From an uncultured Patescibacteria group bacterium (GTDB lineage Bacteria; Patescibacteriota; JACMRA01), in assembly GCA_938041505.1 (NCBI GenBank), contig CALITC010000015.1:1-36734 (forward strand): DNA of 36,734 nucleotides, in the 5' to 3' direction. Below are positions 14,044 to 33,029 of the stretch, in pieces (the stretch's first letter is position 1; every line of letters begins with the position of its first letter). The translations under genes and the position numbers were made by a program. Under the pieces are notes generated by a model. The model was not told the DNA's origin and did no database searches. It saw nothing but the letters and a program-made list of their open reading frames with translations.

Positions 14044-17000
14044 ATGTTCGAGAGGTTCAAAAATCAGATTTTATTTCTGTGGATATTTACTGCCTACTTT
14101 CCCTATTTGCAAGCATTAAATGGTCTAGCACCCAAGCTCAAAATTCCGAGAGTAATCTGGCGTAACAAAGTAATGGCTACTGTAGTGGCTCTAGTTGCGT
14201 TACTTGGCATTTCAAGTAACTCTGCCTTAATCAATATTGTTGAGGCACTATTTCATGTGCAAAACTTTGCCAAAGCAGAGGCTATTGTAGAACCAGGTAT
14301 TACTATTTATAAATACGAAACCGAAACCACCACCACCCTCACCGACAAAGCAGAATTCGAAACCGGATCAAGCACGACAAACCAGTTCGAGACAGGTTTT
14401 GACGATATTATAGCCTTTGATGACACAGATGATTATTTTACCCTTAACCATTACGGTGCGAATGAACCTAATACAGATCAAAACGGAGATTGGTGGGACG
14501 ACGATACTGACGATAGTACCAAATACAACTGGAAATATAGACAATGCTTTGATATCGACCATACAGCAGGAACAACAAACTTAGTCGAATACCAGCTTTA
14601 TCTCGACTTTGATACCGTCACAGAAATATCAGGAGGAAGAATGCAATCTGAAGGTCAAGACATTCGCTTTGTCGATACTTCAGGTAACTTAATTGATCAC
14701 TATATTGCAGATGAAATTAACACCAATACGACAAGAATTTGGATTCAACCGGACTTGATAACTGCAGGCACAACAAAAACTTACTGTATGTACTATGGTA
14801 ACCCCTCCGTAACAAGCACCTCAAACAGAGAGGCTGTCTTTACCTATTCGAATAAAGAAGACCTCTACGCCGTATTAGCCGAAAACGCAGACGGTGATAC
14901 AATCAATTTTGGTAGCTATGTAGATAATAACGATATAATTGTTGACTCTTACAATCAAAGCTATGATCAGTACGAAATCAACTCTGTATCAGGAACTGGA
15001 TCAGTCGCTGGAAATAGCGATATCAGAGCTAATGGACCAATACAAGCAACTATCCAAGGCAGTAATATAGATTCTGTAGTTCCAATTTCTAATGCTGGAT
15101 TAGAGTTTACCTATCGTATGGATAGAGGTGCCCATATTCTAGACTTTGTAGCTCCACGCTGCAGTGCAAATGTAGAAATATACAACACCACCAATCTTGG
15201 CGCAGTTGTAGCTGGAGGTTCCTTTACCATACCGACAGCAGGCTCTTACACTTGGAATGAAGCTGTTGAGGATGCAAATGCCTTTGCTAACGATGATGCT
15301 GTATATATTACTTCTACCAATGGATGCCCTATTTTGGTTAACCACCGCTCAACCGCTAATGCAGACACTTTCCCAATGTTTCCTTCATCAAGCGAAGATT
15401 GGTATGGAGTTGGTTCAAACACCCTTGAACTCTCTTCAAACACAACAACCACCCTTTCAATCTTTGATTCTGGCGCGAGCTCACCTACAAACGTAACTTT
15501 GAATGCCGCAAATGATTATCACACCACAGATACCGGAGCTGGATCTCAAGGTACTCAACCCTCACAAAGAATTGTAGTAACTTCGGGAGGAGGAATTGGA
15601 GCCAAATCTCTCGCTGATAGCGACGGTGGAGAGTCAGCTACATTCTTGCCTCGTTCTGAAATGGATACCAAGTATATCATTCCAGAAGCTGCAGAATACC
15701 TAGCAATTTCTACAATCGCCGGTGCCAATACAACCGTAGAGATATACAATAACGCCAGTGGCTGTGCATTTGGAGGGGGTGCTCCAGACCAAACTGCGTC
15801 TGCAAACTCAACTAATGACTACCCTGGTTTCGTAAGATTTACCGCTATCCCTGCTGGGGCGTGTGTAGTATCCAACCACCCTATCGCTCCTTACTATGAA
15901 AAAGAAAGTGGCGATGATGAAACCAGCCTCTGGAGCTGGAAACAAGGTAGGCAAAGAGTTCAAGTTGACCCAACTACAAGTATTGGAACTGTTGAAGCCG
16001 GAGCTTGGAATCTCGGAACCGGAGATACCTGGAACTCAAGACTGCCCGTCACAATCACCAACAACGTCGGAGCGGCCATTGCAGAATACCCTATTAGAGT
16101 GCCTCTTACTGGTCAAACCGACCTACTTACCAATGCTCAAGCAGATGGAGGGGATGTTCGTATAGCAGGTGCACAAGGTGACGGGACCGACAATCAAGAC
16201 TACTATTTAGAAGAATTCAACAACTCATTTGCCGGCGATGGAGACCTTTGGACACAAACAACAGTAGCGGGAAACTCCACTCAAACTCTTTATATCTATT
16301 ACAACTCAACTACAGCCCAAACTTCGAATGCAAATCAGGAATCTGTCTTCACATACACAAGCGCTCAACCACTTTACTACCCAGTAAGCACTAATACAGG
16401 TGGAACGTTCAATGTATATTCTTTGATTGACAACAACGACTTATTTTTCTTAGGAGTGTCGTATTCAGGGTTTGATACCGGTGAAAACTATACAGACCCA
16501 GGAGTGACTACCAACGCACAAGGAATTGTAAACCAAAACGAAATCTTCCAAGCTACAGGGCCAGTTAACGCTGGTTTTACCAACGATGCCACTGATGCTA
16601 TCCACCCTTTGAGCTGGTCTGGTACAAAATTCTTAACCGCCGATACTCGTTATGAGCAAGAGTTTAGTATTCTCGCTCCATACGCAAATAGCACAGTAAC
16701 TTTTGAAGAAAGCACCGGTACCGGCTGGGCTCCACTAGGGGCAGCGGTTTCGCTTACCCAAGGAGTTAGTCAGAATGTTGTGCGTAACACTCAAAATGGA
16801 ACAGGCACCACTCCTGCCAATGGTATTAGAATCACCTCTACAACTCCAATCATTGTACACACTCACGGTAATAACGGAGCGGCCTTAACCAACGATACAG
16901 TCTTGGTGTACCCAGTAGAAGACAGTTACGAAGAAAGTACTGATACATATGAGCTCTACGGTATATCCTCCAACGCTATGCTATTGACCACAGAAAACCC

Positions 17001-18387
17001 AACAACTACTGTCGAATTCTTTTATGCCGATGGCACATCTAGCGGATCGTTTAACGTTACTGATGCACAACAACACATCTATAGCGAGACTGGAAGTGCC
17101 CAAGGGACTGGAAGAGGTATCAAAATCGTAGCTGATGGCCCAATCAGCGCTCAATCTCAAGCCGATAGCGACGGAACCGAATCTGTAACTTTCCTACCAA
17201 AGAAAGAATTTGCTAAAGAATACCTCGTAATCACAGGTACACAATATATTGCTATTGTAAGCGACGATCCCGGCACAGTTTGTACGGTCTACGATGACCT
17301 AGGAGTCTTGGCGGAAACAAAAACACTCACTTCAAACGCAATCAATCACACCACCCTCGGTAATACCACAACCGGTGACTTATCAGCATTCCTAGCTGGT
17401 TATTACATGCAATGCACCAATCCGGTGTACGCCTATTACGAAAAAAATGGAGATGATACTAACACATCCATCACCGATGAAACAACAATGATTTCGTTCC
17501 CTCAAGCTCGAAAGAAAACAATTATAGAACCAATTATAACCGACATAGACGATACTCAAGTGCTTGAAGAAGGTCTGTACTACGAATCCGGATATGATTC
17601 TAACACCACAGCCTTAGACTTAGAAGCCTCAATAACTTTCACCATTGACGGAAACACCTTGAACAACCCAACTCATATTTCTTGGAACGATTTTGATTGG
17701 ACTTCTATTATCCCAACTCAAAGCGAAACCAATAATGTAGAAGCAGTAGAAGTTGAGGTTTTCTACGCGACAGATACCAACTGCGCTACAGCAACGTATA
17801 CTTCTGCGGGCATTCTAACTGGCAGCTCAGATACAATTCCTATTACCGCTTCAGACAACAGCTGTCTTCAAGTTGAGATAACACTCAGAACGGGCGACGA
17901 AGCATATGCCCCATTAATTGAAGATATTACATTCACCTATACAGACCCAATGGAAATCGGAGACATTACAACAACAAACAACATCAACATCGATGGAAAC
18001 ATTTCAGCAACAAGTATAAACAAAAGAATCTTAAAATTCGTCACACCTAATACCAATCTAAGCAACCTAGATCATGAATTAAGCTATGAATCCGGAACCA
18101 ATACCGCTGACTTTACCAACTTTGATCTTGACCTTGTAGAAACAGACACAAATACAGCGATAAATCAGTTCGACTATCCATCTCCAGGATTCCCAGTAAC
18201 ACCACCTGCTGTCTACTCTGGTAATTCAGCTGAATTCAATAGCTCAACAGATAATGCCTTATATCTTGACCAAGCAAGGGCTACCGGCTCTGCAAGCGTC
18301 TTCGAGATTGAAAGTCATATCTACGTTGAAGGCTCTAATGGCGTCGTTATTAATCGCCCTTACACCCTAACAATTAGCGGAACATAG
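14044..18387 (+). CDS. Giant DUF2341-containing surface protein with internal duplication
   Basis: The 1447-residue product has a cytoplasmic-type start of about 55 residues, one hydrophobic export segment (TVVALVALLGISSNSA) and then an entirely extracellular, Thr/Asn/Asp-rich, strand-rich body. Two DUF2341 domains are visible: about 162-261 (YNWKYRQCFDID ... CMYYGNPSV) and about 663-764 (WNSRLPVTITN ... LYIYYNST). Each is followed by a related module ending in a Ser-Asp motif: AKSLADSDGGESATFLP (about 519) and AQSQADSDGTESVTFLP (about 1035). Thus residues about 160-655 and 660-1150 are duplicated units of roughly 500 residues. The C-terminus (1150-1447) has further beta domains, no sorting motif and no final membrane anchor. 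DUF2341 proteins often occur in large exported or adhesin-like proteins; binding of host cells or glycans is inference. Start ATG 14044; stop TAG. Confidence 0.85.
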   Translation: MFERFKNQILFLWIFTAYFPYLQALNGLAPKLKIPRVIWRNKVMATVVALVALLGISSNSALINIVEALFHVQNFAKAEAIVEPGITIYKYETETTTTLTDKAEFETGSSTTNQFETGFDDIIAFDDTDDYFTLNHYGANEPNTDQNGDWWDDDTDDSTKYNWKYRQCFDIDHTAGTTNLVEYQLYLDFDTVTEISGGRMQSEGQDIRFVDTSGNLIDHYIADEINTNTTRIWIQPDLITAGTTKTYCMYYGNPSVTSTSNREAVFTYSNKEDLYAVLAENADGDTINFGSYVDNNDIIVDSYNQSYDQYEINSVSGTGSVAGNSDIRANGPIQATIQGSNIDSVVPISNAGLEFTYRMDRGAHILDFVAPRCSANVEIYNTTNLGAVVAGGSFTIPTAGSYTWNEAVEDANAFANDDAVYITSTNGCPILVNHRSTANADTFPMFPSSSEDWYGVGSNTLELSSNTTTTLSIFDSGASSPTNVTLNAANDYHTTDTGAGSQGTQPSQRIVVTSGGGIGAKSLADSDGGESATFLPRSEMDTKYIIPEAAEYLAISTIAGANTTVEIYNNASGCAFGGGAPDQTASANSTNDYPGFVRFTAIPAGACVVSNHPIAPYYEKESGDDETSLWSWKQGRQRVQVDPTTSIGTVEAGAWNLGTGDTWNSRLPVTITNNVGAAIAEYPIRVPLTGQTDLLTNAQADGGDVRIAGAQGDGTDNQDYYLEEFNNSFAGDGDLWTQTTVAGNSTQTLYIYYNSTTAQTSNANQESVFTYTSAQPLYYPVSTNTGGTFNVYSLIDNNDLFFLGVSYSGFDTGENYTDPGVTTNAQGIVNQNEIFQATGPVNAGFTNDATDAIHPLSWSGTKFLTADTRYEQEFSILAPYANSTVTFEESTGTGWAPLGAAVSLTQGVSQNVVRNTQNGTGTTPANGIRITSTTPIIVHTHGNNGAALTNDTVLVYPVEDSYEESTDTYELYGISSNAMLLTTENPTTTVEFFYADGTSSGSFNVTDAQQHIYSETGSAQGTGRGIKIVADGPISAQSQADSDGTESVTFLPKKEFAKEYLVITGTQYIAIVSDDPGTVCTVYDDLGVLAETKTLTSNAINHTTLGNTTTGDLSAFLAGYYMQCTNPVYAYYEKNGDDTNTSITDETTMISFPQARKKTIIEPIITDIDDTQVLEEGLYYESGYDSNTTALDLEASITFTIDGNTLNNPTHISWNDFDWTSIIPTQSETNNVEAVEVEVFYATDTNCATATYTSAGILTGSSDTIPITASDNSCLQVEITLRTGDEAYAPLIEDITFTYTDPMEIGDITTTNNINIDGNISATSINKRILKFVTPNTNLSNLDHELSYESGTNTADFTNFDLDLVETDTNTAINQFDYPSPGFPVTPPAVYSGNSAEFNSSTDNALYLDQARATGSASVFEIESHIYVEGSNGVVINRPYTLTISGT

Positions 18388-18459: not shown

Positions 18460-18999
18460 ATGACCAAAAAAATATCAAGAACTACAAAAAAAGAATTCAT
18501 AGACTATCTATCGGAGACTCTTTTTAGTGTTTCAATTTATTTCATGCTGTATCGTATTTTGACGGTTTTTATCATTACTAATATCTATGGCTACCAATGG
18601 TCTATTCGGAGAGATTTTGGCAGTATACCTATCCTAGCATTTGAAATGAATCTAGATGAGTTTGCTAGAATGAATGCCAATTCCCAAATCATTACTGCCG
18701 TTCTAATACTGATCGGGTTCATACTAACTATGTTCAGAAAACCTAAGCAACATTTCAAAAAAGATCGTTATGCTTGGAAGTTGGCTCATGTGAGTGGCTG
18801 GTTCTTAGGGGTTTTGATGAGTATGATCATGTATTTCGTAGCGATCTACATCAATCCTGGATTACGTTTTGAGACCAAAGAATACACCGGTATTGCCATA
18901 GTGTTAATAAATATCATTGGCCTACTTTGTTATGTTATCTATACTCAATATCTAAGCGCAAGATATAGCAAAACAACCAAAGAAAAGCTCGCAGCTTAA
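18460..18999 (+). CDS. Four-span membrane protein of unknown function
   Basis: A 179-residue protein with basic ends and about four hydrophobic spans (about 22-42, 74-92, 107-131, 145-167). The loop between spans one and two is about 30 residues and carries RRDFGSIPILAFEMNLDEFARMN. No family recognised. It follows the giant surface gene by 72 nt with no terminator between, so the two may be co-transcribed; a TTGACA at 18402 has no good -10. Start ATG 18460 (MTKKISRTTKKEF). The final TAA overlaps the stop of the convergent trimodular gene by two bases. Confidence 0.75.
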   Translation: MTKKISRTTKKEFIDYLSETLFSVSIYFMLYRILTVFIITNIYGYQWSIRRDFGSIPILAFEMNLDEFARMNANSQIITAVLILIGFILTMFRKPKQHFKKDRYAWKLAHVSGWFLGVLMSMIMYFVAIYINPGLRFETKEYTGIAIVLINIIGLLCYVIYTQYLSARYSKTTKEKLAA

Positions 19000-21900
19000 A
19001 GATGTGCTTTTGAACTCAATCCTTTGCGTTGTAAATGATTCCAAGACTGATGCCCTCCTCTGATGGCTTTGAGTACAACCAGACATTGCGTAAACCAAAG
19101 AATAGCTCTATATACAATCATTTGATAAGGTAGGTACCACAATACTTGCCATTTATTTTTATTATTATCGACCAAGACTGCCATAACATTACTTATATAG
19201 TAAAGTGCCAATGATCCCATTACAAACATAAGCGACCTCGTAAAATCACCACCAATCAACATCTGGATATCTGCCCTACTTGAAAACAAACTTATCGTAA
19301 AATTAAACAAAAGGATAACAAGCATATATAGATAAGCAACCATCATCCCCAAAAAAACATAACTCAACAATGTTTCGGGTAAGACTACTATACCAAGATA
19401 TCCATACCGAGGATTAAAAACCATACTCTTGTGCTTCCATAAACACTGCAAAGTTCCGTATTGCCACCGAATACGCTGTTTTACAAAATCACGAATATTT
19501 GAAGGTGCTTCCGTAATTGCAATTGCATCTTTTTCATAAACAATCTTGCGCCCCAGCTTTCTAATGCGCAAGGTAAGGTCTGTATCTTCAGCCAAAGTTT
19601 GGTTGGAATAACCACCAACAGCTATCATATCTTCTTTGCGCCAAGCACCAAGGGCCCCCGGAACCACAGGTATGGCATTAGTAAGGCTAAAAATTTCTTT
19701 ATCAAACGATTGACCATATATATACTCGGCTCTCTGAGTCTGAGTCAAAAACGAGTCGTAGTTACCTACATGAATATTTCCAGAAACGCCACCAACTTTT
19801 TCATCGATAAAATTACGCATCAATTTTGATATAGTATTTTCGAGCATGATTGTATCTGCATCGATACATACCACAAAATCATATTTTGCCTGCAATAAAC
19901 CATAATTACTTGCACTTGACTTCCCACCATTTTCTTTGGCCAGAATCTGAACTTTAGGATTATTGGAGTACTTGCTGCTCAGTTTTTTGAGGGTGTTATC
20001 TTTCGACCCATCGTCAACAACAATCACCTCAAGCAGCGGATAATCAGACGCCAAGACTGACTTCACCGTATCCAAGATAGTTTTTTCTTCATTATAAGCT
20101 GGCACAATTACTGAAACCCCTGGTTGGTGATCGGTTATCTTACGTTTTTTTAGCAAGGCCAAACCAAATAAAAACAGAGTTAAGAAAAGCTTCACAAACA
20201 TAATCCAAGCAAAGACTGTTGCATAGCCCCAAAAAGCTTTGGATAAATATTTAGAATTCCAAGCTTTAATTCTATTACGTATATTCCACAACCTCCCTTG
20301 AGATTGAGTTTCAAACTCATGATGGTGATTGAGCTCAGTAAGAGGGGCAAAAGCTATTCCCCTATCCTGAATATCATCAATGATTGACGGCAGTGCTTGA
20401 ATTGTTTGAGACTTATCTCCCCCGCCATCATGGAAGAGTACCTGGCTATAATCTCCGCTATCAATCTTATCAAGGACGTTAGCTCGGATTTGTTCCACTC
20501 CTGGCTTAGTCCAATCCCGAGAGTCAACCTCAAACTCAGCAACCTGCAAACCAAGATCCTGCAATACCTCCAAATTCTTCAGATCATAATTCGTTGCATA
20601 CCCATCAGTATCATTGAAAGGTGTTCTAAAATAGACTGGCTCAACCCCAGAAACCTCTCTAATTGCATCTTGCGTTAGTTCAACTTCCTTGCGAAACGCA
20701 TCGGATCGCAAATAATACGTTCGAGGATGCAGGTACGTATGGTTGCCTGTTTCATGACCTTCATCAACTATTCGCTTAACTATATCCGGATGCTTGCGAA
20801 CGTTATCCCCTACAACATGAAAAGTTGCTGTTACATTTTTTTCCTTGAGAATGTCCAAGATTGCTGGAGTATATTCTGGGTGCGGGCCATCATCAAAAGA
20901 CAAATTTATATGTCCAATCTTCTTCCCAAATCTCACAACCCTAGCTTGTTGAGGCAACTCTACAACTGTAGTATTATACAGCGATTCGTTCTCAACTAGT
21001 TCAACTTTCAGAGGCTTAGGTTTTTGTAAAAGATGGTACATCTCTCCCTCACCTTGCCGTATAATTGAAGTAGTCAAAAATATCTCTTCAGGACCTTCAT
21101 TAAAAGAATAATTTTTCAAATTCCATGCTCGAGAGTCAACCTCGCTTAGACCAGCATAACCAAAATCTCCATTATAACCGCCTCTATCCAAAGCTCTCTG
21201 AATAGCAAGACTGTCCAACACTTGGTAATCTCCACAGTCTCCAATAACATCATAAGAACATTGGGCATTCTCCTCTAATTTTTCTTGATAATTGACCACA
21301 GGTATCAGAGTCGATCCTAATCGATACTCAAAATTAAAAATTGGGATTACCCCTTCAAAGTTATGATCTGGGTTATCCAGAAGATCGTCAATCGTTACCA
21401 GTTGGTAAGGTTTTGAATCTGTAACCACTTTTAAATCAATCTCAGAGTTATTTTGCAACATCCACCTAAAAGATAGATTTTTAGAAAGACCACCTTCATA
21501 AGCACTCTTCAAACTTAGAAGAGTATTCACATCAAAATCTTCGGTAAGCTTAAGTGCAATGCCAGAATAATTAAACCTCTCTAAGTACTTTTGCAATGTA
21601 GACATATATGCCTTTAAGCCTTCTTCATCACCAAGCAATGCTACAATTTCAGGGTTAACATTTTCCACATAAAGCTGCGGGACATCTACAATGTATTTCT
21701 GCTTAAATTCAAGTAAATTATCTTCTGAAGTAGTGACCCTACCTTCGAGTAGAACTTCCGAAAAATTATTAACATATTCTTTAAAATGAGCATAATCACC
21801 TGCACCAAGTTTCACAACAACAGGGTACTTGTCGTTCATAGAAGTTTCAGTACCTGCCTCCAATGAGAGATACGATTTCATTGAACGAAACGTTGACTCT

Positions 21901-22058
21901 ATGCCAAAGAAACCAAAAACAATTATAAAAATCAATCCAAAGCTAAGTAAAATTTTTGCGAAGCGCCATCGCCTGCCCGTCACATCGTTAAAAATTTGAG
22001 GTAACTTGGACTTACCTAATTCTAATGATTTTCGAACAACAATTTGACTATCTTTCAT
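18996..22058 (-). CDS. Trimodular GH18-like / NodB deacetylase / GT2 membrane protein
   Basis: In order: an N-terminal membrane span (about 36-56); an extracytoplasmic GH18-like region (about 65-340); a NodB polysaccharide deacetylase (about 380-580); a span (about 622-645); a cytoplasmic GT2 domain (about 655-870); and C-terminal spans (about 885-990). The NodB motifs look complete: SFDDGP (D389, D390), NHTYLHP (H440, H444), RTPFND, DSRDW and LFHDGG. GT2 motifs: VVDDGS, CIDADT (D733/D735), LAEDTD (E825-D826), QRIRW (862-866). The three-part order matches known bacterial proteins that synthesise and trim beta-linked N-acetylglucosamine-type polysaccharide; the exact polymer is inferred. The GH18 catalytic DxxDxDxE is not seen (GIALKLTED at the expected place), so that part may only bind glycan. 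Single-gene unit with a promoter at 22099-22128. Start ATG 22058; stop TAA. Confidence 0.88.
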   Translation of the reverse strand: MKDSQIVVRKSLELGKSKLPQIFNDVTGRRWRFAKILLSFGLIFIIVFGFFGIESTFRSMKSYLSLEAGTETSMNDKYPVVVKLGAGDYAHFKEYVNNFSEVLLEGRVTTSEDNLLEFKQKYIVDVPQLYVENVNPEIVALLGDEEGLKAYMSTLQKYLERFNYSGIALKLTEDFDVNTLLSLKSAYEGGLSKNLSFRWMLQNNSEIDLKVVTDSKPYQLVTIDDLLDNPDHNFEGVIPIFNFEYRLGSTLIPVVNYQEKLEENAQCSYDVIGDCGDYQVLDSLAIQRALDRGGYNGDFGYAGLSEVDSRAWNLKNYSFNEGPEEIFLTTSIIRQGEGEMYHLLQKPKPLKVELVENESLYNTTVVELPQQARVVRFGKKIGHINLSFDDGPHPEYTPAILDILKEKNVTATFHVVGDNVRKHPDIVKRIVDEGHETGNHTYLHPRTYYLRSDAFRKEVELTQDAIREVSGVEPVYFRTPFNDTDGYATNYDLKNLEVLQDLGLQVAEFEVDSRDWTKPGVEQIRANVLDKIDSGDYSQVLFHDGGGDKSQTIQALPSIIDDIQDRGIAFAPLTELNHHHEFETQSQGRLWNIRNRIKAWNSKYLSKAFWGYATVFAWIMFVKLFLTLFLFGLALLKKRKITDHQPGVSVIVPAYNEEKTILDTVKSVLASDYPLLEVIVVDDGSKDNTLKKLSSKYSNNPKVQILAKENGGKSSASNYGLLQAKYDFVVCIDADTIMLENTISKLMRNFIDEKVGGVSGNIHVGNYDSFLTQTQRAEYIYGQSFDKEIFSLTNAIPVVPGALGAWRKEDMIAVGGYSNQTLAEDTDLTLRIRKLGRKIVYEKDAIAITEAPSNIRDFVKQRIRWQYGTLQCLWKHKSMVFNPRYGYLGIVVLPETLLSYVFLGMMVAYLYMLVILLFNFTISLFSSRADIQMLIGGDFTRSLMFVMGSLALYYISNVMAVLVDNNKNKWQVLWYLPYQMIVYRAILWFTQCLVVLKAIRGGHQSWNHLQRKGLSSKAHL

Positions 22059-25103: not shown

Positions 25104-25727
25104 ATGCCTAGAAAGAAAATGATTCGGTATAGAGATCTTGCTAAGTTTGACAATGTACACGAAGGCTTAGAGTTTAAGTACAAAGATATATTTAATAACG
25201 ATAATCCAATCACTTTAGAGCTTGCGTGTGGCCGAGGTGAGTATACCAATGGTCTTGCTCAACAATTCCCAAATCAAAACTTTGTTGGTATCGACATTAA
25301 AGGCGAACGTATCTGGCAAGCGGCCACCCAATCACATGAATTAAATCTATCCAATACTGCTTTTATCAGAGGCAGTATAGACATGCTCGAGAATTTTTTT
25401 GAAAACAACTCAATCGACACCATCTGGATTATCCACCCAGACCCGCAACCCAAACGAGAACGCCAGCGCTTAACCCACCCCAAATACCTCCACAAGTATA
25501 ACAACCTTCTAGTACCTGGCGGACAACTCAATCTAAAAACAGACGATCAGAACTTCTTTGATTACAGCTTGGAAACAATCTCCAAGCTCTTCACCATCCT
25601 CAAACAAACCAAAGATCTCCACAATTCTAAACACCTAGAAGATCATCACGGAATAATCACCAACTTCGAACAAAAAGCCCTCTTAAAAAAGAAAAGTATC
25701 TGTTACTTATCAGCTTCCAATAATTAG
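25104..25727 (+). CDS. trmB: tRNA (guanine-N7-)-methyltransferase
   Basis: TrmB methylates G46 in the tRNA variable loop using S-adenosylmethionine. The SAM-binding motif LELACGRGEYTNGLAQQFP and FVGIDIKGERIWQA are clear. The family signature FPDPWPKxRHxKRRL appears as HPDPQPKRERQRL, with Trp replaced by Gln. LKTDDQNFFDY and TNFEQKAL match the C-terminal motifs. The 207-residue length is normal for a compact TrmB. Start ATG 25104 (MPRKKMIRYRDL); no strong promoter is seen. Its TAG stop overlaps the stop of the convergent DUF3137 gene. Confidence 0.93.
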   Translation: MPRKKMIRYRDLAKFDNVHEGLEFKYKDIFNNDNPITLELACGRGEYTNGLAQQFPNQNFVGIDIKGERIWQAATQSHELNLSNTAFIRGSIDMLENFFENNSIDTIWIIHPDPQPKRERQRLTHPKYLHKYNNLLVPGGQLNLKTDDQNFFDYSLETISKLFTILKQTKDLHNSKHLEDHHGIITNFEQKALLKKKSICYLSASNN

Positions 25728-26752
25728 CTTTTATACAAATGCTCGTGATTGATATTGAGATCATTAGCCAAATCCAGTAATTTTTGTATTACTTCCATAT
25801 ATTCTTCCAACTTACGATATTCAAACTCTTTTTCCAAATCCAGATCCATAAACCCTCCTGCAAAACTTGAACCAATAATGACATGCTTATCTCTGAACTC
25901 AACAAAATTTTTATCCCCATAAGATTCAAAATCGATAAGTTTAGACAGTACATTTGTCTTCCAGCAAACCCTGGCTTCTCTCTGATTAGAGGTAAAGGCA
26001 TGATATTTCTCATTGAATACCCTACTTTCAAGTTTTAACGGCTCGAGATCTTTTACCGAAGGTTTGTAGAGATCTTTATGGATAACAATCGACTCACCTT
26101 CAAAATCATGATCAACCTCCACATGCAACACTAACCAGCGACCATAGTTCCTTAATTTTGTCCTTTGAGTTCCACGACTCACATCTTTTTGCAAAGAGAA
26201 CTCACAGATGGCAACCTGTTTACCTTCGGACTCAAAAATCCAATCATCTTCGATAGTTCCGTAATATTTGAGACTAGACTTCTTAAAAGGCTTCAGAGTC
26301 AACTCAGAATTTGATTGAACTTTTAGAGAATGAGGATACTGCATTACCCGGCTCCAGTGAACCAGTCCACCAGGAACATTTCTTTTTGCAGAATCAAAAT
26401 ATGAATTGAAATAAATCGGCAACACAGTATTATGCAAATATGTCTCAGCAAATCTATGAGGTGTTGAAGATAATCTAGCATTCTGATCTCGATTGTTCAC
26501 CAAGAAGTAAACCAAATACCCCACACCAGCAAAAGGAATAACAACTATAGCAATGGAAGCTAAAACGGCAAACCACAATCTACTTAGTGGAAAAATCCCA
26601 ATCAGCTGAAAAAGAACAATCGGAAATATAAATAGCCCTAAAGCAATTGCAAAAATCTTTCTATTCAAAAATTTTAGAGCAATCAGAGACTTGCGATCCT
26701 CTTCACGAAGCTGATTAAGAGTTTTGAGTTCTAGTTCAAGACTGTCTGGCAT
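25724..26752 (-). CDS. DUF3137-family protein, paralogue 3
   Basis: Last of three tandem paralogues (342 residues). Two adjacent hydrophobic spans near the N-terminus (about 30-50, 58-85) precede a cytoplasmic-type domain of about 250 residues. Family features: DHDFEGES; LESRVFNEKYHAFTSNQREARVCWKTNV, which corresponds to the DUF3137 'LE..eFe..F.vys.dq.eAR' motif; VEFRDKHVIIG; and a closing LNINHEHLYKS. The function of DUF3137 is unknown. It is separated by 3 nt from the preceding paralogue, so it is translated from one message that begins with a TMEM175-type channel. Start ATG 26752; stop TAA overlaps the trmB stop. Confidence 0.82.
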   Translation of the reverse strand: MPDSLELELKTLNQLREEDRKSLIALKFLNRKIFAIALGLFIFPIVLFQLIGIFPLSRLWFAVLASIAIVVIPFAGVGYLVYFLVNNRDQNARLSSTPHRFAETYLHNTVLPIYFNSYFDSAKRNVPGGLVHWSRVMQYPHSLKVQSNSELTLKPFKKSSLKYYGTIEDDWIFESEGKQVAICEFSLQKDVSRGTQRTKLRNYGRWLVLHVEVDHDFEGESIVIHKDLYKPSVKDLEPLKLESRVFNEKYHAFTSNQREARVCWKTNVLSKLIDFESYGDKNFVEFRDKHVIIGSSFAGGFMDLDLEKEFEYRKLEEYMEVIQKLLDLANDLNINHEHLYKS

Positions 26753-26755
26753 AAT

Positions 26756-27760
26756 TTAGTTTTTCTTAGATTTAGTCTTATAAAGATATTCATGGTTGAT
26801 ATTAAGCTTTTCAGTAAGCTCCATCATTTTTATAACCAAATACTTTGAATCTTCGAACTGTGAGAGAAGAAGTTTTTTTCGTGTTTCATGCTCAAAAACA
26901 CCTGCATTATGTTCTACACCAATTGTCACATACCCTCGACTGAACTCCATGAAGAATTTCCCTTGGGGATTAAGATCGTTCAAAGCTTGCATTACATTAG
27001 TCTTCAAGCACACCCGAGCCTCACGCTGGTTATTCGAATATACAACAAACTTCATAGCAAACTCCCTACTTTCTAGATTCACTTTATCCAACCCACTTCG
27101 AGAAAACCAATATAGCTTGCGAGATAAGACAGTCTCACCTTCAAAATCATGATCCACTTTAGCTCGAACCACCAAAAATCTTGCGTAATCTGCATAATAG
27201 TGAATGTTTTTCGCTTCTCTTAAAATTTGAATAGAATACTCACCAAACTTATAATCAGCACCTTCATAAACTATGTCATATTGGTCTTCGACCTGAGCTA
27301 AATACTGAGGTTTAGTATTCCATAATTCAATAGTATAATCTTGGGCAGAATAAAAGTAACTATAAAACGAATCAAACAACTTATAATCAGGCTTACTCAA
27401 TACGCGACTACTCAATGTTAATTCATGTGGCTCAGAATGTTTTGCACTAGACACAAATCCTTGTAGATAAGTTGGTATAATTGAAGCATGAAGAAGCTGG
27501 TGAAGTTTCTGATCCCTATGAGAAAATTTCTTATGCTCAAAAAATCCTAACCCAGCCAAACCAAAAATAGTGACCACGAAGAACTGTGTAAAAAGGAGTA
27601 TATTATACACGATAGCCATCCAAACTACGACAATAAATATAATGACTATAGCGGCGAGCACTTTTGGTATTATTATATTCCAATACTCCACCCGCTCTCT
27701 TCTAAAGTCTAATAGTTCCTGGTTATATTCATCAACATAAAGTTCTAATTTTTGTTTCAT
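26756..27760 (-). CDS. DUF3137-family protein, paralogue 2
   Basis: Middle paralogue (334 residues) with the same plan: acidic N-terminus, a hydrophobic hairpin (about 28-75), then the DUF3137 domain. The domain has DHDFEGETV, LESREFAMKFVVYSNNQREARVCLKTNV, FMEFSRGYVTIG and the terminal LNINHEYLYKT. It is closer to paralogue 3 in the VYSNNQREARVC block than to paralogue 1. Gaps of 3 nt on each side mark a tight operon. No catalytic motif can be named. Start ATG 27760; stop TAA. Confidence 0.82.
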   Translation of the reverse strand: MKQKLELYVDEYNQELLDFRRERVEYWNIIIPKVLAAIVIIFIVVVWMAIVYNILLFTQFFVVTIFGLAGLGFFEHKKFSHRDQKLHQLLHASIIPTYLQGFVSSAKHSEPHELTLSSRVLSKPDYKLFDSFYSYFYSAQDYTIELWNTKPQYLAQVEDQYDIVYEGADYKFGEYSIQILREAKNIHYYADYARFLVVRAKVDHDFEGETVLSRKLYWFSRSGLDKVNLESREFAMKFVVYSNNQREARVCLKTNVMQALNDLNPQGKFFMEFSRGYVTIGVEHNAGVFEHETRKKLLLSQFEDSKYLVIKMMELTEKLNINHEYLYKTKSKKN

Positions 27761-27763
27761 ACG

Positions 27764-28765
27764 CTATTTGCTTAACTTTGATTTGTAGAGGTATTCATGG
27801 TTGATATTCAATAATTGAGTTAAGTCAATCATATGCTCAATAAGTTCCAAAGAATGATTAAGATTCTGCACAGAAATATTTCCTTCTCGATCTGCAAAAA
27901 ACAACTCTGGCTTAATAGGTATTCCTATCAACACTTGCTGATTACCAAACTCTATAAATGAGCCTTGATCCAATTCTGCAGTGTATTTTTTCCAGGCAGA
28001 AATCACATTCGTCTTGAAGCATACTCGGGCATCTGTTTGAGAGGTCGTATAGACTCTAAATTTATTCATAAAAGCGTCGTTTTCAAAGCGAACTTTCTCA
28101 AAATCTTTTGGAAGGAATCTTTCTGCCGCAAAATGATACTGTGAAGCAATTGTCACTCCATCAAAATGATGATCTACCGGACTTATAAGGACCGCTGTGG
28201 CTGATATATTATTTTTGAGCTCAAACAACGTATACATCTGGTTCTCGTAAGTAAATGTATAAAAATCTCCCACACTAACGTCATCAGAAAATTTCCCATA
28301 CCTCAAGCTCTCCTGGGCAAATTCGTTAGTTGAGGAATTAAACTTATCAATATTTACGCTCAGATGGGGGTCTTTACTATATCTATGGGATAAATATACA
28401 CTATTTTGCACGATATTTTTCGGGTTGGCGATTTGCACGACAGAGTATTTTTCTGACAACTTTCGTATGATAGTATCTACCTTAGCTTTGTCAGCCTTAT
28501 CATTAATCGATTTAGCCATATTACCATAATTTGTTACAGTTTTGATCCATCCCCATATTATGGCTAAAGGCAACCATATCACTAAAGCCACAGCAAGTGT
28601 GATCTCCATTAAAGTTTTGGCATCATACCCACTCTCGATATAAGTACTAACCACTGCGAGTAAAGACAACGACACAGGAAGTACAAAATAAAAGCTGAAT
28701 AATCCACCAAGTGCTATTTTTAGCTTCCTTATCCTCTTCTTGAATTCGTGCTTACCTTGAGACAT
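27764..28765 (-). CDS. DUF3137-family protein, paralogue 1
   Basis: First and most divergent of the three paralogues (333 residues). The basic N-terminus (KHEFKKRIRKLK) leads into a membrane hairpin (about 17-75), then the conserved domain: DHHFDGVT, FENDAFMNKFRVYTTSQTDARVCFKTNV, FIEFGNQQVLIG, and the terminal LNINHEYLYKS. The shared last motif in all three copies suggests a functional C-terminus. It lies 20 nt after the TMEM175-type gene. Start ATG 28765 (MSQGKHEF); stop TAG. Confidence 0.82.
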   Translation of the reverse strand: MSQGKHEFKKRIRKLKIALGGLFSFYFVLPVSLSLLAVVSTYIESGYDAKTLMEITLAVALVIWLPLAIIWGWIKTVTNYGNMAKSINDKADKAKVDTIIRKLSEKYSVVQIANPKNIVQNSVYLSHRYSKDPHLSVNIDKFNSSTNEFAQESLRYGKFSDDVSVGDFYTFTYENQMYTLFELKNNISATAVLISPVDHHFDGVTIASQYHFAAERFLPKDFEKVRFENDAFMNKFRVYTTSQTDARVCFKTNVISAWKKYTAELDQGSFIEFGNQQVLIGIPIKPELFFADREGNISVQNLNHSLELIEHMIDLTQLLNINHEYLYKSKLSK

Positions 28766-28785
28766 AGTTTGAAAGTTATTTATTG

Positions 28786-29424
28786 CTATGATTTTTTGAA
28801 TAATCTATCCTCTATCCAATTCAATCCTCCAGGAATCATATTGAAAATTATCGGGAAAGCAAAAAACAACAAACTAAGATTAATATTATAGAACGAAACA
28901 AAGATTGAAACCACACTAAAGACAGGAGGTAAGAATATGCGAATAGTACCGTGAATAACATCTTGTTTGAGAATATACTTAGTCTGCAGATCCTTTTGAG
29001 ATAAAATATACGCTCTCATAACATACAGGCTAAGCCCGATCAAAATAATATTAATCGAATACACAATAGTCGCCACGTTATACTCAAAATATAACCCCAA
29101 CAAATTTGCAGAAAACGGAACCAGACTAGCAAAACTCAAGAAAAGCATATTCAAATAAGCCAGCACTCGATCCATCTGCTTTACGTAATTATCAAAAATA
29201 AACTGATGCGCCATCCAGTAAGTAGCCAGCACAGCAAAACTAATAAAAAAACTAGAAATAAGTGGCCAGATACCATCAAGCGCAATCCATAAATCGTTGT
29301 TAGCAAACTCCCCTATCAAACGCGGCACTTGTACCTCAATGACAAGGAGTGTCATAATGATAGCAAACACACCGTCAGTGAGTGTCTCGAGTCTGTTTTT
29401 GCTTAGTTTTGTTTTTTTATACAT
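28786..29424 (-). CDS. TMEM175-family (DUF1211) potassium channel-like protein
   Basis: The first helix carries the family signature RLETLTDGVFAIIMTLLVIEVQVP, matching the 'R..aFsDgVfAIamTLLvLei.vP' helix that lines the pore of bacterial TMEM175 potassium channels. About six membrane spans fit the 212 residues, a normal size for bacterial single-repeat members. The WMAHQFIFDNY segment is also typical. It heads the operon with three DUF3137 paralogues, which suggests that those membrane-hairpin proteins work with, or respond to, ion flux or membrane state; that is inference. Promoter at 29448-29476 with a leader of about 17 nt. Start ATG 29424; stop TAG. Confidence 0.88.
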   Translation of the reverse strand: MYKKTKLSKNRLETLTDGVFAIIMTLLVIEVQVPRLIGEFANNDLWIALDGIWPLISSFFISFAVLATYWMAHQFIFDNYVKQMDRVLAYLNMLFLSFASLVPFSANLLGLYFEYNVATIVYSINIILIGLSLYVMRAYILSQKDLQTKYILKQDVIHGTIRIFLPPVFSVVSIFVSFYNINLSLLFFAFPIIFNMIPGGLNWIEDRLFKKS

Positions 29425-29447: not shown

Positions 29448-29476
29448 ATTATATCCCATATACAGCATATTGTAAA
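29448..29476 (-). promoter_or_regulatory. Promoter of the TMEM175-DUF3137 operon
   Basis: On the minus strand: TTTACA (29476-29471), 17 nt, and a perfect TATAAT (29453-29448). It lies in the gap divergent from the ABC-F gene. Confidence 0.65.
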
Positions 29477-29537: not shown

Positions 29538-31349
29538 ATGCGCCATATAGTGAATGCCAGCGAAATAACGATCAAACAAGGCAAAAAAACCCTCCTTAGC
29601 AAAGTCTCTTTTGCAATCCAAGACCAAGACAAAGTTGTTATTGTTGGGCGCAACGGTACCGGCAAAACAACCTTAATGACGATCCTAGCTCAAGAGAACG
29701 AAATCGATGAGGGGGATCTTATCTACGCAACAGGTCTCAAAATTGGCTATTTACCTCAAGAATTCAGCCTTCCACTAGATCAAAGCATCCACGAAGTTCT
29801 GCAAAACGAATACAAAAAATATCACTTGGGCGTCTGGTCAGAAAATCACGAAATTCAAGAATTAGAGAAGGTGTTTAAGCTCCCTCCTGAATCAACACTT
29901 ATCAAGCACTTATCCGGAGGTCAGCATCGACGCGTAGCCCTGCTCAAAGCTTTACTCCTAGAACCTGATCTACTACTTCTTGATGAGCCAACCAACCATT
30001 TAGATCTCGAAATGATCAAAGCGTTAGAAAAGATTATCCACAATTACCCAAAAGCCTGTGTTTTAATCTCCCATGATCGATATTTTGTCGACCAGACTGC
30101 CAACAAGATTCTAGAAATCGACAACCAACAAATCCACACTCATCGCGGAGGGTTCTCTGATTACCTATACTCAAGAGAAACCAGACTCAGCAACTTAGAA
30201 AAAGCCGAGGAAAAACGCCAGGAATTTCTCAAACGAGAACGAGAATGGGTCGTCTCAGGAGTCAAAGCCAGAGGCACCAAAAACAAAGGTCGAATGAAGC
30301 GCTACCAAGAAGTCAAAAAACAAGAAACGTTTCGTAGGAGAATTGATCCTAACCTTCTTATTCCAGAGCCACCTGTGCTCGGAAGCAAAGTCTTGAAGGG
30401 TATTAATCTACATATCGACATCGCAGGTCAGCATATTCTAAAAGATTTTAACTTTAAATTCGAAGAAGGATACAAAGTCGGACTTATCGGACCCAACGGT
30501 AGCGGCAAAACAACCTTCTTAAGAACTATTACCGGTGAGCTCCCCCCTACTCGAGGCAAGGTCGTCATCGGCGAAAGCACAATTATCAATTACCAAGACC
30601 AAAGTCGAAGTGATATCGATTTTACCAAGTCCATCATGCAAGAAGTTTGCGGAGGGGCTGACCGAATCGAATTCGGTTACGGAAGTGTCAATTCCTACGC
30701 CTACCTCAAGCGCTTCTTATTCTCATCCCAACAAATTAGAGAATCTGCTTTTAATCTCTCAGGTGGCGAGCGGGCCAGGGTATTACTGGCAAAATTATTC
30801 CGTATCTCTTCCAATTTCCTGATTCTCGACGAACCAACTAACGACTTAGATATCGAAACTTTGAACGTCTTGGAATCCTCGCTTAGAGATTTTCCAGGGT
30901 GCATGATTGTCGTTAGTCATGATCGATATTTTCTCAATAATATCTGCACCCATATTCTTAGCTTAGAGGGGGATGGCTCGTATATTCTCAGTACCGGAAA
31001 TTATGACGACTTCATTCAAAAATACAAATCCGAAGCAAATCCTCTTCAAGAAGAATCAACTGATGAGCCCGCCCCCAAAGAAGCCAAACCTAGGCCAGAA
31101 AAAATAAACGAATCCGAAAACAAACTTACCGACCAAGAACGAAGAAAACTCAAAAAAGAACTCAATCGCCTCACCGGGCAAATAGCCAAACTAGAATCCC
31201 AAATCCAAGACAAAGAAGCCAAGTTTGCCGACCCAGAGTTCTTCAAAAGGGAGAATCTCGACAACTTTATGTTCAGCCTCGGTCGCGACAAAAAACAACT
31301 CGAATTATGGGAGACAAGATTCTTAGAAATATCAGATATAATAGACTAA
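29538..31349 (+). CDS. ABC-F family ATPase (Uup/EttA-like)
   Basis: A soluble protein of 603 residues with two ABC domains and no membrane spans, as in ABC-F factors that bind the ribosomal E site and ease stalled or difficult translation. First domain: Walker A GRNGTGKTT (from 37), signature LSGGQ (from 125), Walker B LLLLDEPTNHLD. The interdomain P-site-tRNA-interaction linker is about residues 215-265 (KREREWVVSGVKARGTKNKGR). Second domain: GPNGSGKTT (from 318), LSGGERAR (about 407), FLILDEPTNDLD. A Pro/Glu-rich spacer leads to a C-terminal coiled coil (about 530-600) like the Uup C-terminal domain, which binds nucleic acid. Uup is the best guess within the group. A TATAAT at 29513 precedes it without a good -35. 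Start ATG 29538; stop TAA. Confidence 0.9.
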   Translation: MRHIVNASEITIKQGKKTLLSKVSFAIQDQDKVVIVGRNGTGKTTLMTILAQENEIDEGDLIYATGLKIGYLPQEFSLPLDQSIHEVLQNEYKKYHLGVWSENHEIQELEKVFKLPPESTLIKHLSGGQHRRVALLKALLLEPDLLLLDEPTNHLDLEMIKALEKIIHNYPKACVLISHDRYFVDQTANKILEIDNQQIHTHRGGFSDYLYSRETRLSNLEKAEEKRQEFLKREREWVVSGVKARGTKNKGRMKRYQEVKKQETFRRRIDPNLLIPEPPVLGSKVLKGINLHIDIAGQHILKDFNFKFEEGYKVGLIGPNGSGKTTFLRTITGELPPTRGKVVIGESTIINYQDQSRSDIDFTKSIMQEVCGGADRIEFGYGSVNSYAYLKRFLFSSQQIRESAFNLSGGERARVLLAKLFRISSNFLILDEPTNDLDIETLNVLESSLRDFPGCMIVVSHDRYFLNNICTHILSLEGDGSYILSTGNYDDFIQKYKSEANPLQEESTDEPAPKEAKPRPEKINESENKLTDQERRKLKKELNRLTGQIAKLESQIQDKEAKFADPEFFKRENLDNFMFSLGRDKKQLELWETRFLEISDIID

Positions 31350-31430: not shown

Positions 31431-33029
31431 GTGAAAAAATTATTAATTAACAGCCTGTTCTTATCGGTACTTTGTTCTTTTGGTTTAGCTATGGAAACCA
31501 ATGCCAGAGAAATACAAGCCGGGTCTACTTTATCAAAAATAGTAGAGCTGCAAAGAAGTAACGTGGCAGAAGATTACGGCAAATTAGTATGCCTAATCGA
31601 TCAAAATGGAAACACAATTTCCACACGACAAACTGCACCAGAAACCGGAGCTTACACTTTTGCAAGTCCAGGCTCTAAGTGCGACACATTCAAGCACCAC
31701 CAAACCTTTCGTCGTTTCTACGTGCGAATCGGTGACAAAGCTAACCGTGTCTTGTTTCTACATAACGACGGCTTAAGTGCTTTACCATATGTAGAGGAAG
31801 GGTCTGAGATCTCATATGTACAACCAATCAGGTTTACCATGCGAGAATTAGTTGGAAAGGAGCAAAAAGAGCCAATCTTGATAATTGGGACTCAATACCC
31901 TGATAGCAAAATATATGCTGATGATGTCGTCAGCTATATGGTTCTTGCTCCAGAAGATCATCAAATCAGAGAAATTGAGCTTGTTGTCGCAAGTAACCGC
32001 AAGCAGCTAAGGTTTGCAAGTAACGCAATCAACAAGCTAAAAACAAGACAGTTCAAGGCACAAGATATTGTCGAAGGAAAACTAAGTTTTGGTGCCATTG
32101 TCAAAACCCCAGGGCGAGCAGATGGCATCTCAAATAGTGCCGTATTTACCTATTACGGTACAAAGAGACCAAAAACTCAACCTGAGCTGGTGAATCAAGC
32201 TGCCAGAGAGCAAGAAAACAAGCCTATCAAAATTGCAACAGTCAACAAGGAATTTGAGGACGCCGAAACAAGCGAAATGCATCGCTGCGCTGTCCTGGTA
32301 CAAAAATCCCTATTCCCTGAGCATGAGTTCGCTGGTGATGAACTTGCGGTGTTGTGTAAGAATGTTGATTTCAGAGTCAATCAGGTGTTTTTCTTACAAG
32401 ATTCAGCCTACAAAGTCACTGAAGTCTTACCGAACACTTTGCATAGGTTTAAGTTCTTAGGTACAATTGACGAACTCTCTGAAAAAATTGAGGAGGAGAA
32501 AAAGACTACCAGAAACCTTACAGTCAAAAAACCTCCCCTAACACCCCAACCTGAACGAGTAGTAAAAATTACTCCAACAGAACAAGCTGTCGAAAACGTC
32601 GATCCTGAACCAAAAGTTGTTGAAACGGCAAAAGTCATCAGCCCTACTCTGAGGGATGTTAAACTTAGTAGAGAAACTGCTTCTTGGCTTCGAAAAGGTG
32701 TCCCAGATTACTCGGTTTACTTCGGATATGACAACCGACATAAAGTTCGATATGTTGGTATTTCTAAAAACCCAAGCAAACTATTCAAGGACTTTGAAAA
32801 CGATCCTTACAAGTCGTTCTTAAAGTTCGGAGTTGCTGAAAAGGACTTAACCCTCAACCAAGCTCGCGCTCTTGAGCAATACTACCAGTTCAAACATGAG
32901 CAAAAAAATGGAGGTCGAGTCCTGACAAGCAACAAGCTAGGAGGGGTCTACAACACGATCGATTCTGACAACAGAGAGTTAATCTATCCCGAAGCACTTA
33001 ATTGGGCTAAGGGGTATGCCGAGCAATAA
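31431..33029 (+). CDS. Exported protein with GIY-YIG-like C-terminal domain
   Basis: Begins with GTG and a clear signal peptide (MKKLLINSLFLSVLCSFGLAMETNA). The body (about 30-335) contains two Cys-bearing segments (LVCLIDQNGN...KCDTF and RCAVLVQKS...VLCKNVDF) that look like related domains with possible disulfides. A Pro/Lys/Thr-rich linker covers about 345-405. The C-terminal 110 residues (about 420-530) match the plan of GIY-YIG-type domains found at the ends of bacterial toxins: YSVYFGY, RYVGISKNP, ARALEQYY with the conserved Glu near 482, NKLGGVYNT and a final YPEALNWAKGY. The Arg usually found after YVGIT..N is Lys/Leu here, so nuclease activity is uncertain. Known GIY-YIG enzymes cleave DNA. 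Own promoter and terminator; no immunity-type gene on the same strand. Stop TAA. Confidence 0.75.
   Translation: MKKLLINSLFLSVLCSFGLAMETNAREIQAGSTLSKIVELQRSNVAEDYGKLVCLIDQNGNTISTRQTAPETGAYTFASPGSKCDTFKHHQTFRRFYVRIGDKANRVLFLHNDGLSALPYVEEGSEISYVQPIRFTMRELVGKEQKEPILIIGTQYPDSKIYADDVVSYMVLAPEDHQIREIELVVASNRKQLRFASNAINKLKTRQFKAQDIVEGKLSFGAIVKTPGRADGISNSAVFTYYGTKRPKTQPELVNQAAREQENKPIKIATVNKEFEDAETSEMHRCAVLVQKSLFPEHEFAGDELAVLCKNVDFRVNQVFFLQDSAYKVTEVLPNTLHRFKFLGTIDELSEKIEEEKKTTRNLTVKKPPLTPQPERVVKITPTEQAVENVDPEPKVVETAKVISPTLRDVKLSRETASWLRKGVPDYSVYFGYDNRHKVRYVGISKNPSKLFKDFENDPYKSFLKFGVAEKDLTLNQARALEQYYQFKHEQKNGGRVLTSNKLGGVYNTIDSDNRELIYPEALNWAKGYAEQ

Follow-up and report, generated by a model that had tools for sequence, protein, structure and literature searches.

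The stretch analyzed here, referred to as the window, comprises 36,734 nucleotides (nt) of contig CALITC010000015.1 from an uncultured Patescibacteria group bacterium (GenBank assembly GCA_938041505.1), and carries a gene for a TMEM175-family membrane protein followed by three tandem paralogues of the DUF3137 family. The most useful result of the analysis was a fold lead for DUF3137, whose C-terminal domain is predicted to resemble TtfA and, less clearly, CCDC47; the link to the channel is weak. We tentatively propose that the DUF3137 proteins are accessory or chaperone-like subunits for a multipass membrane partner, encoded here beside TMEM175, a reading to which we give somewhat less than an even chance. 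This estimate covers the accessory-subunit reading, and the rival explanations weighed below concern the partner, so that the probabilities do not sum to one. The gene arrangement itself represents known families in a new combination, seen in one genome, and matters less than the fold lead. The unit contains the following elements, with protein lengths in amino acids (aa) and Pfam matches given as expectation values (E) and as bits against the curated cut-off.

28786-29424, minus strand: TMEM175-family membrane protein, 212 aa (PF06736, E 3.8e-23, 82.2 bits against 25)
27764-28765, minus strand: DUF3137 paralogue A, 333 aa, the most divergent of the three (PF11335, E 9.9e-8, 32.4 bits against 26.1)
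26756-27760, minus strand: DUF3137 paralogue B, 334 aa (PF11335, E 3.1e-15, 56.7 bits against 26.1)
25724-26752, minus strand: DUF3137 paralogue C, 342 aa (PF11335, E 6.9e-11, 42.6 bits against 26.1)
29448-29476, minus strand: sigma-70-like promoter TTTACA-17-TATAAT, matching 11/12 consensus positions, 23 nt ahead of the TMEM175 start codon

Predicted fold of DUF3137

AlphaFold models were built for paralogue B and for a relative from Peribacteria (L074), both from the same five aligned sequences. The model of B had a mean predicted local distance difference test (pLDDT) score of 58.5 and showed an N-terminal hydrophobic helix, a low-confidence stretch at residues 64-150 (pLDDT below 50) and a C-terminal domain of TtfA/CCDC47-like fold. 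In ten-residue blocks, the pLDDT was 61-82 for residues 161-290 and 73-76 for residues 301-320. The L074 model (mean pLDDT 73) consisted of a two-helix hairpin followed by a globular domain.

For each model, Foldseek returned a single PDB match with E below 0.001, TtfA (6t84; E 1.3e-5 for B and 3.1e-6 for L074). A second aligner placed the same structure at Z 11.6 over 166 residues for B and Z 11.0 over 173 residues for L074. It also matched 7tm3 chain 4 (Z 9.1 for B, 8.3 for L074), 9i78 chain 4 (7.2 and 8.2) and 6w6l chain 7 (6.4 for B). We take 7tm3 chain 4 and 6w6l chain 7 to be CCDC47 from the complexes to which they belong. The 9i78 chain is likewise taken to be CCDC47, as its length and residue range agree with residues 76-447 given in the publication. 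With L074, the alignments to putative CCDC47 chains spanned 197 and 204 residues. The rows that came next in the two listings had Z 5.9 and 6.7. By the aligner's own note, models that lack a clear match typically reach a top Z of 7 to 8, and such values are common for unrelated folds; therefore, the TtfA link clearly exceeds this level and the CCDC47 link barely does so.

In the literature, TtfA is described as being anchored in the membrane and partnering a multipass transporter, with homologues reported among mycolate producers. CCDC47 is described as a subunit of the PAT complex at the ribosome-Sec61 translocon, where it binds ribosomes and contacts Sec61, and as a part of the multipass translocon of the endoplasmic reticulum. 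Because both proteins partner multipass membrane machines, the predicted fold indirectly favors an accessory membrane assembly and suggests that DUF3137 is probably a membrane-anchored accessory domain for such partners.

Gene unit and promoter

The original prediction had described a TMEM175-type channel and three DUF3137 proteins as a co-directional unit with two 3-nt junctions behind a perfect -10 promoter. These claims were borne out: all four proteins scored above their curated Pfam cut-offs, the four genes lie on the minus strand with gaps of 20, 3, and 3 nt in the order TMEM175, A, B, C, and a TATAAT is present ahead of TMEM175. From spacing and orientation alone, we infer a single transcript of the four genes. 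The 5 kb scanned contain 19 promoter-like sites (shuffle mean 15.9 sites), among which this promoter ranked first, and 7/1000 dinucleotide-shuffled versions of the 113-nt intergenic sequence contained an equally good match. Promoter-like sites inside the unit were weaker, and their number was about that expected by chance. A terminator scan gave a single weak site, inside TMEM175 and below the shuffle mean, which was not used as evidence. The GC content of the four genes was 35-36%, compared to 38.4% in the window. By eye, no clear Shine-Dalgarno sequence was seen in the 30 nt upstream of the TMEM175 and three DUF3137 start codons.

The TMEM175-family protein matched 6w8n (E 1.2e-15) and 5vre (E 1.2e-13) among PDB sequences. 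Its helix 1 reads RLETLTDGVFAIIMTLLV, in which LTD replaces the FSD motif; the Asp and the helix-1 Thr are kept in an alignment to 5vre. It is nearer to the TMEM175 copy of genome G356 (43% identity) than to that of G004 (36%).

Two genes flank the unit, and the 3' end of paralogue C overlaps the end of the convergent one by 4 nt.

25104-25727, plus strand: trmB-type methyltransferase, convergent neighbor (PF02390, E 3.6e-34)
29538-31349, plus strand: divergent ATPase outside the unit, with two ABC_tran stretches, presumably of the ABC-F type

Conservation of the TMEM175-DUF3137 pairing

The pairing was surveyed in a phylum sample of 379 genomes. The window genome (G000; 1.12 Mb, 26 contigs, 68.8% complete) belongs to a class with six genomes in the collection, from one family and six genera. 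DUF3137 matches were found in 21 genomes, 17 of them over the curated cut-off and the others (G178, G251, G268, G327) below it, and more than one copy was seen in the window genome only. TMEM175 matches were found in 22 genomes (19 over the cut-off). Both families are present in G000, G003, G004, G227, G286 (TMEM175 under the cut-off) and G356; G000 is the only one in which they adjoin, and the other five carry them on separate contigs. For G302, G327, G178, G251, G268, and G343, adjacency was judged from coordinates. When the DUF3137 and TMEM175 sites were checked, no TMEM175-DUF3137 neighborhood appeared in any other sampled genome, and the expectation of a conserved neighborhood failed, as adjacency was confined to the window genome among the 21 with DUF3137. 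Gene-level co-occurrence looked enriched overall (Fisher p 6e-4; with curated cut-offs, 8e-4), and the enrichment faded after removal of the window's own family (p 0.056; 0.12 with curated cut-offs), all of these values being optimistic since the genomes are related. The proposed partnership between the channel and DUF3137 is therefore weakly supported.

The site in G004 provides a comparison. There, TMEM175 and trmB converge and overlap by 4 nt, just as paralogue C and trmB do in the window, and no DUF3137 gene lies between them; G004 carries its DUF3137 gene on a different contig, in other surroundings. It follows from this synteny that the DUF3137 block was either inserted between trmB and TMEM175 in the window lineage or lost in G004. 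Some caution is called for here, given that the window TMEM175 shares more identity with its G356 counterpart than with the one in G004. G005, whose trmB is located on a 6.6-kb contig, has neither a TMEM175 nor a DUF3137 match. The TMEM175 sites of other genomes, 18/21 of which were read as lists of open reading frames without a family scan, have varying neighbors.

These observations bear on the possibility that the genes are chance neighbors. According to this explanation, DUF3137 landed between TMEM175 and trmB, was duplicated twice and uses the channel promoter with no tie to the channel, while working elsewhere, e.g., with LemA. We consider this close to an even call. Adjacency in 1/21 DUF3137 genomes and in 1/6 genomes with both families, the trmB-TMEM175 pair kept in G004, the variable surroundings of the 18 read TMEM175 sites and the location of lemA on another contig of the window genome all speak for it. 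However, reading frames and motifs are kept in three tightly packed genes, the 3-nt junctions hint at selective pressure to express at least these three together, and the nominal co-occurrence is significant, though not without the window's own family.

The original prediction had gone further and proposed a hetero-oligomer of the three paralogues, which in this form would bind the TMEM175 channel and gate or tune ion flow. The tightly spaced, co-directional genes behind one promoter fit such a complex, as do the C-terminal blocks that the paralogues still keep at 27-37% identity and the occurrence of the predicted DUF3137 fold in partners of membrane machines. Nevertheless, we regard it as improbable, given that no second genome among the 379 has the neighborhood and that bacterial TMEM175 forms a tetramer on its own, with no auxiliary subunit mentioned in the accessible part of the published account.

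LemA and M48 protease as neighbors of DUF3137

LemA was present in 24/24 genomes tested. In 6/21 DUF3137 genomes (G154, G197, G013, G343, G356, G289), it was found at most 3.2 kb from DUF3137 on the same strand, and in G154 and G197 it lies directly upstream. Three LemA/DUF3137 clusters, those in G013, G289, and G356, were scanned for an M48 protease, and each contains one. DUF3137 matched five plasmid records; three of these loci were read, and in two of them, on plasmids of Thermus brockianus and Pontibacillus, LemA immediately precedes DUF3137.

Fusions with a Tim44-like domain were also found. In G013, a glycine-rich protein with a DUF3137-like domain behind a Tim44-like domain (L034:8235-9650) directly follows lemA; both domains are just under their cut-offs (Tim44 29.5 bits against 29.6; DUF3137 25.2 against 26.1). 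Further glycine-rich, Tim44-like proteins with a C-terminal DUF3137-like part are encoded in G227 (L049:6284-7531, over one cut-off) and G286 (L050:6777-8093, over both cut-offs).

It can accordingly be asked whether the DUF3137 set is part of a LemA/M48-protease quality control of membrane proteins, acting in trans with the lemA of the window genome, with TMEM175 being incidental. The shared neighborhoods in genomes and plasmids, the M48 protease in every cluster scanned for it, the general presence of LemA and the G013 fusion beside LemA are in line with this explanation. We nonetheless think it rather unlikely, as 15/21 DUF3137 genomes lack such a neighborhood. LemA is moreover present in G001, G002, and G005, which have no DUF3137 match, and DUF3137 is therefore not obligatory. 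In the window genome, lemA (contig C12) and DUF3137 (C15) are not adjacent.

As a separate observation, lemA lies beside a gene that, by its sequence, looks like that of ribosomal protein S15 in both the window genome (L071:7789-8634) and G004 (L072:5111-6031), a shared site away from DUF3137. Among the papers listed by a literature search on LemA, HtpX, and CCDC47 in prokaryotes, none concerned DUF3137. One loosely relevant study (PMC13236525) reports elevated lemA, along with genes of membrane homeostasis, in an sppA mutant.

A possible accessory role

In paralogue B, the 15 residues before the hydrophobic stretch (residues 24-74) contain 3 basic residues and have a net charge of -2, and the 15 residues after it contain 4 and have a net charge of +2. 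Under the positive-inside rule, this pattern agrees weakly with a cytosolic location of both ends. What we infer about topology, accessory role, co-expression and contact with TMEM175 can be summarized as follows. The N-terminal hydrophobic region of each DUF3137 protein, a two-helix hairpin in the L074 model, would anchor the protein in the membrane, and the C-terminal domain with the TtfA/CCDC47 fold would probably be cytosolic. By analogy with TtfA and CCDC47, the proteins may then bind a multipass partner from the cytosolic side and stabilize, assemble or regulate it. For the family at large, this partner would more likely be found in the LemA/M48 context. In the window genome, the triplicated set would have been placed under the TMEM175 promoter, and TMEM175 might be the partner, a candidate through the shared promoter only and in one genome.

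Several points weigh against an accessory-subunit role. The CCDC47 fold link is weaker than the TtfA link, with Z near the level of unrelated folds, and the confidence of both models is moderate. The two models are not independent, since they were made from the same five sequences, and the repeated match is only a partial confirmation. The Z 11.6 alignment of model B starts at residue 94, within the low-confidence stretch. TtfA was missing from the PDB sequence matches of profile A2 at an E threshold of 1 and of profile A6 at a threshold of 10, and the Pfam CCDC47 family (PF07946) had no match among 11 A2 proteins at E up to 10, where the HMMER filters drop most matches so weak. LemA is not beside DUF3137 in most DUF3137 genomes, as noted above, and was not found beside it at the Pseudoalteromonas plasmid locus. 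Finally, fold likeness alone is no proof of function.

If the fold is indeed that of TtfA and CCDC47, DUF3137 can be tested for a role in transport or in membrane-protein biogenesis, and bacterial LemA/M48 genes become linked to a eukaryotic translocon component. This would concern several bacterial phyla, as DUF3137 occurs in Patescibacteria, Thermus, Pontibacillus, and Pseudoalteromonas. A bolder proposal is that DUF3137, TtfA and CCDC47 form an unrecognized fold class of membrane-anchored cytosolic clamps that aid the folding, assembly or work of multipass proteins, with the three copies here having specialized as subunits or assembly factors dedicated to the TMEM175 channel; we regard this as a long shot. 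In the literature searched, CCDC47 and TtfA were not named together, and DUF3137 was nearly absent, being named in two papers.

Origin of the three paralogues

The motifs VDH(D/H)F(E/D)G, ARVCxKTNV, and LNINHExLYK were found in all three paralogues, in agreement with the DHxF(E/D)G, ARVC.KTNV, and LNINHE.LYK blocks noted earlier. In pairwise BLASTP, B and C share 31% identity over 316 columns (E 2e-40), and A and B share 37% over the C-terminal 143 columns (E 8e-22). A fragment from G090 and ten other matches, which were Tim44-fused, partial or below the cut-off, were set aside, and trees were constructed from the remaining 12/23 DUF3137 matches. The three paralogues group in a single clade with support 100/99 in both the whole-length and the C-terminal tree, and the triplication that had been claimed is thus most likely specific to this lineage. 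The sister of the clade is G003+G004 of the same family with weak support (59/81 and 71/84), and the remaining branches are long. The LNINHExLYK end is peculiar to A, B, and C and absent from the 8 other aligned proteins. A search of the sample with an A/B/C profile found relatives in 6 other genomes, one copy each and with far lower scores. Direct search of the genome contigs confirmed no DUF3137 protein of the window type, and the A4 scan led to two Peribacteria loci, apparently those of G154 and G197.

Other origins were considered. The divergence of the paralogues rules out an assembly duplicate as the source of the three copies. A defense system was rejected, as the four unit proteins had no PADLOC match, and a phage origin was rejected, as protein B had no match in phage records or viral contigs; the PHROGs search gave a single weak match among the four unit proteins (E 0.044). 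NCBIfam returned only matches far below the cut-offs. Repeated copies also occur outside Patescibacteria, on the Thermus brockianus plasmid (L076, 4148-8218), where LemA, DUF3137, a transposase and a second DUF3137 follow each other.

Other genes in the window

Three more genes in the window were noted. In a 1447-aa protein (14044-18387), Pfam matches at E 1e-4 or better are limited to one DUF2341 domain, and a 1020-aa protein (18996-22058) joins a polysaccharide deacetylase domain and a family 2 glycosyltransferase domain. The 532-aa protein encoded at 31431-33029 has no significant Pfam match; judged by eye, its C-terminal part resembles a GIY-YIG motif.

Comparison with known systems

The predicted C-terminal DUF3137 fold resembles that of TtfA (6t84), the mycobacterial trehalose monomycolate transport factor A (Z 11.0-11.6), with 7-11% identity over the aligned residues and no sequence match. 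It may also resemble that of CCDC47 (Z 6.4-9.1, near the level of unrelated folds), which is known from eukaryotes and whose family PF07946 was not matched. Unlike in LemA-DUF3137 gene pairs, lemA does not adjoin the window set. The TMEM175-family protein is similar to the bacterial TMEM175 K+ channels (5vre, 6hd8) in its Pfam score, its helix-1 alignment, the Asp and the Thr, but it has LTD in place of FSD and three DUF3137 genes behind it. The window proteins are all over the cut-off of the DUF3137 family (PF11335) and differ from its other members by their three tandem copies and their own LNINHExLYK end.

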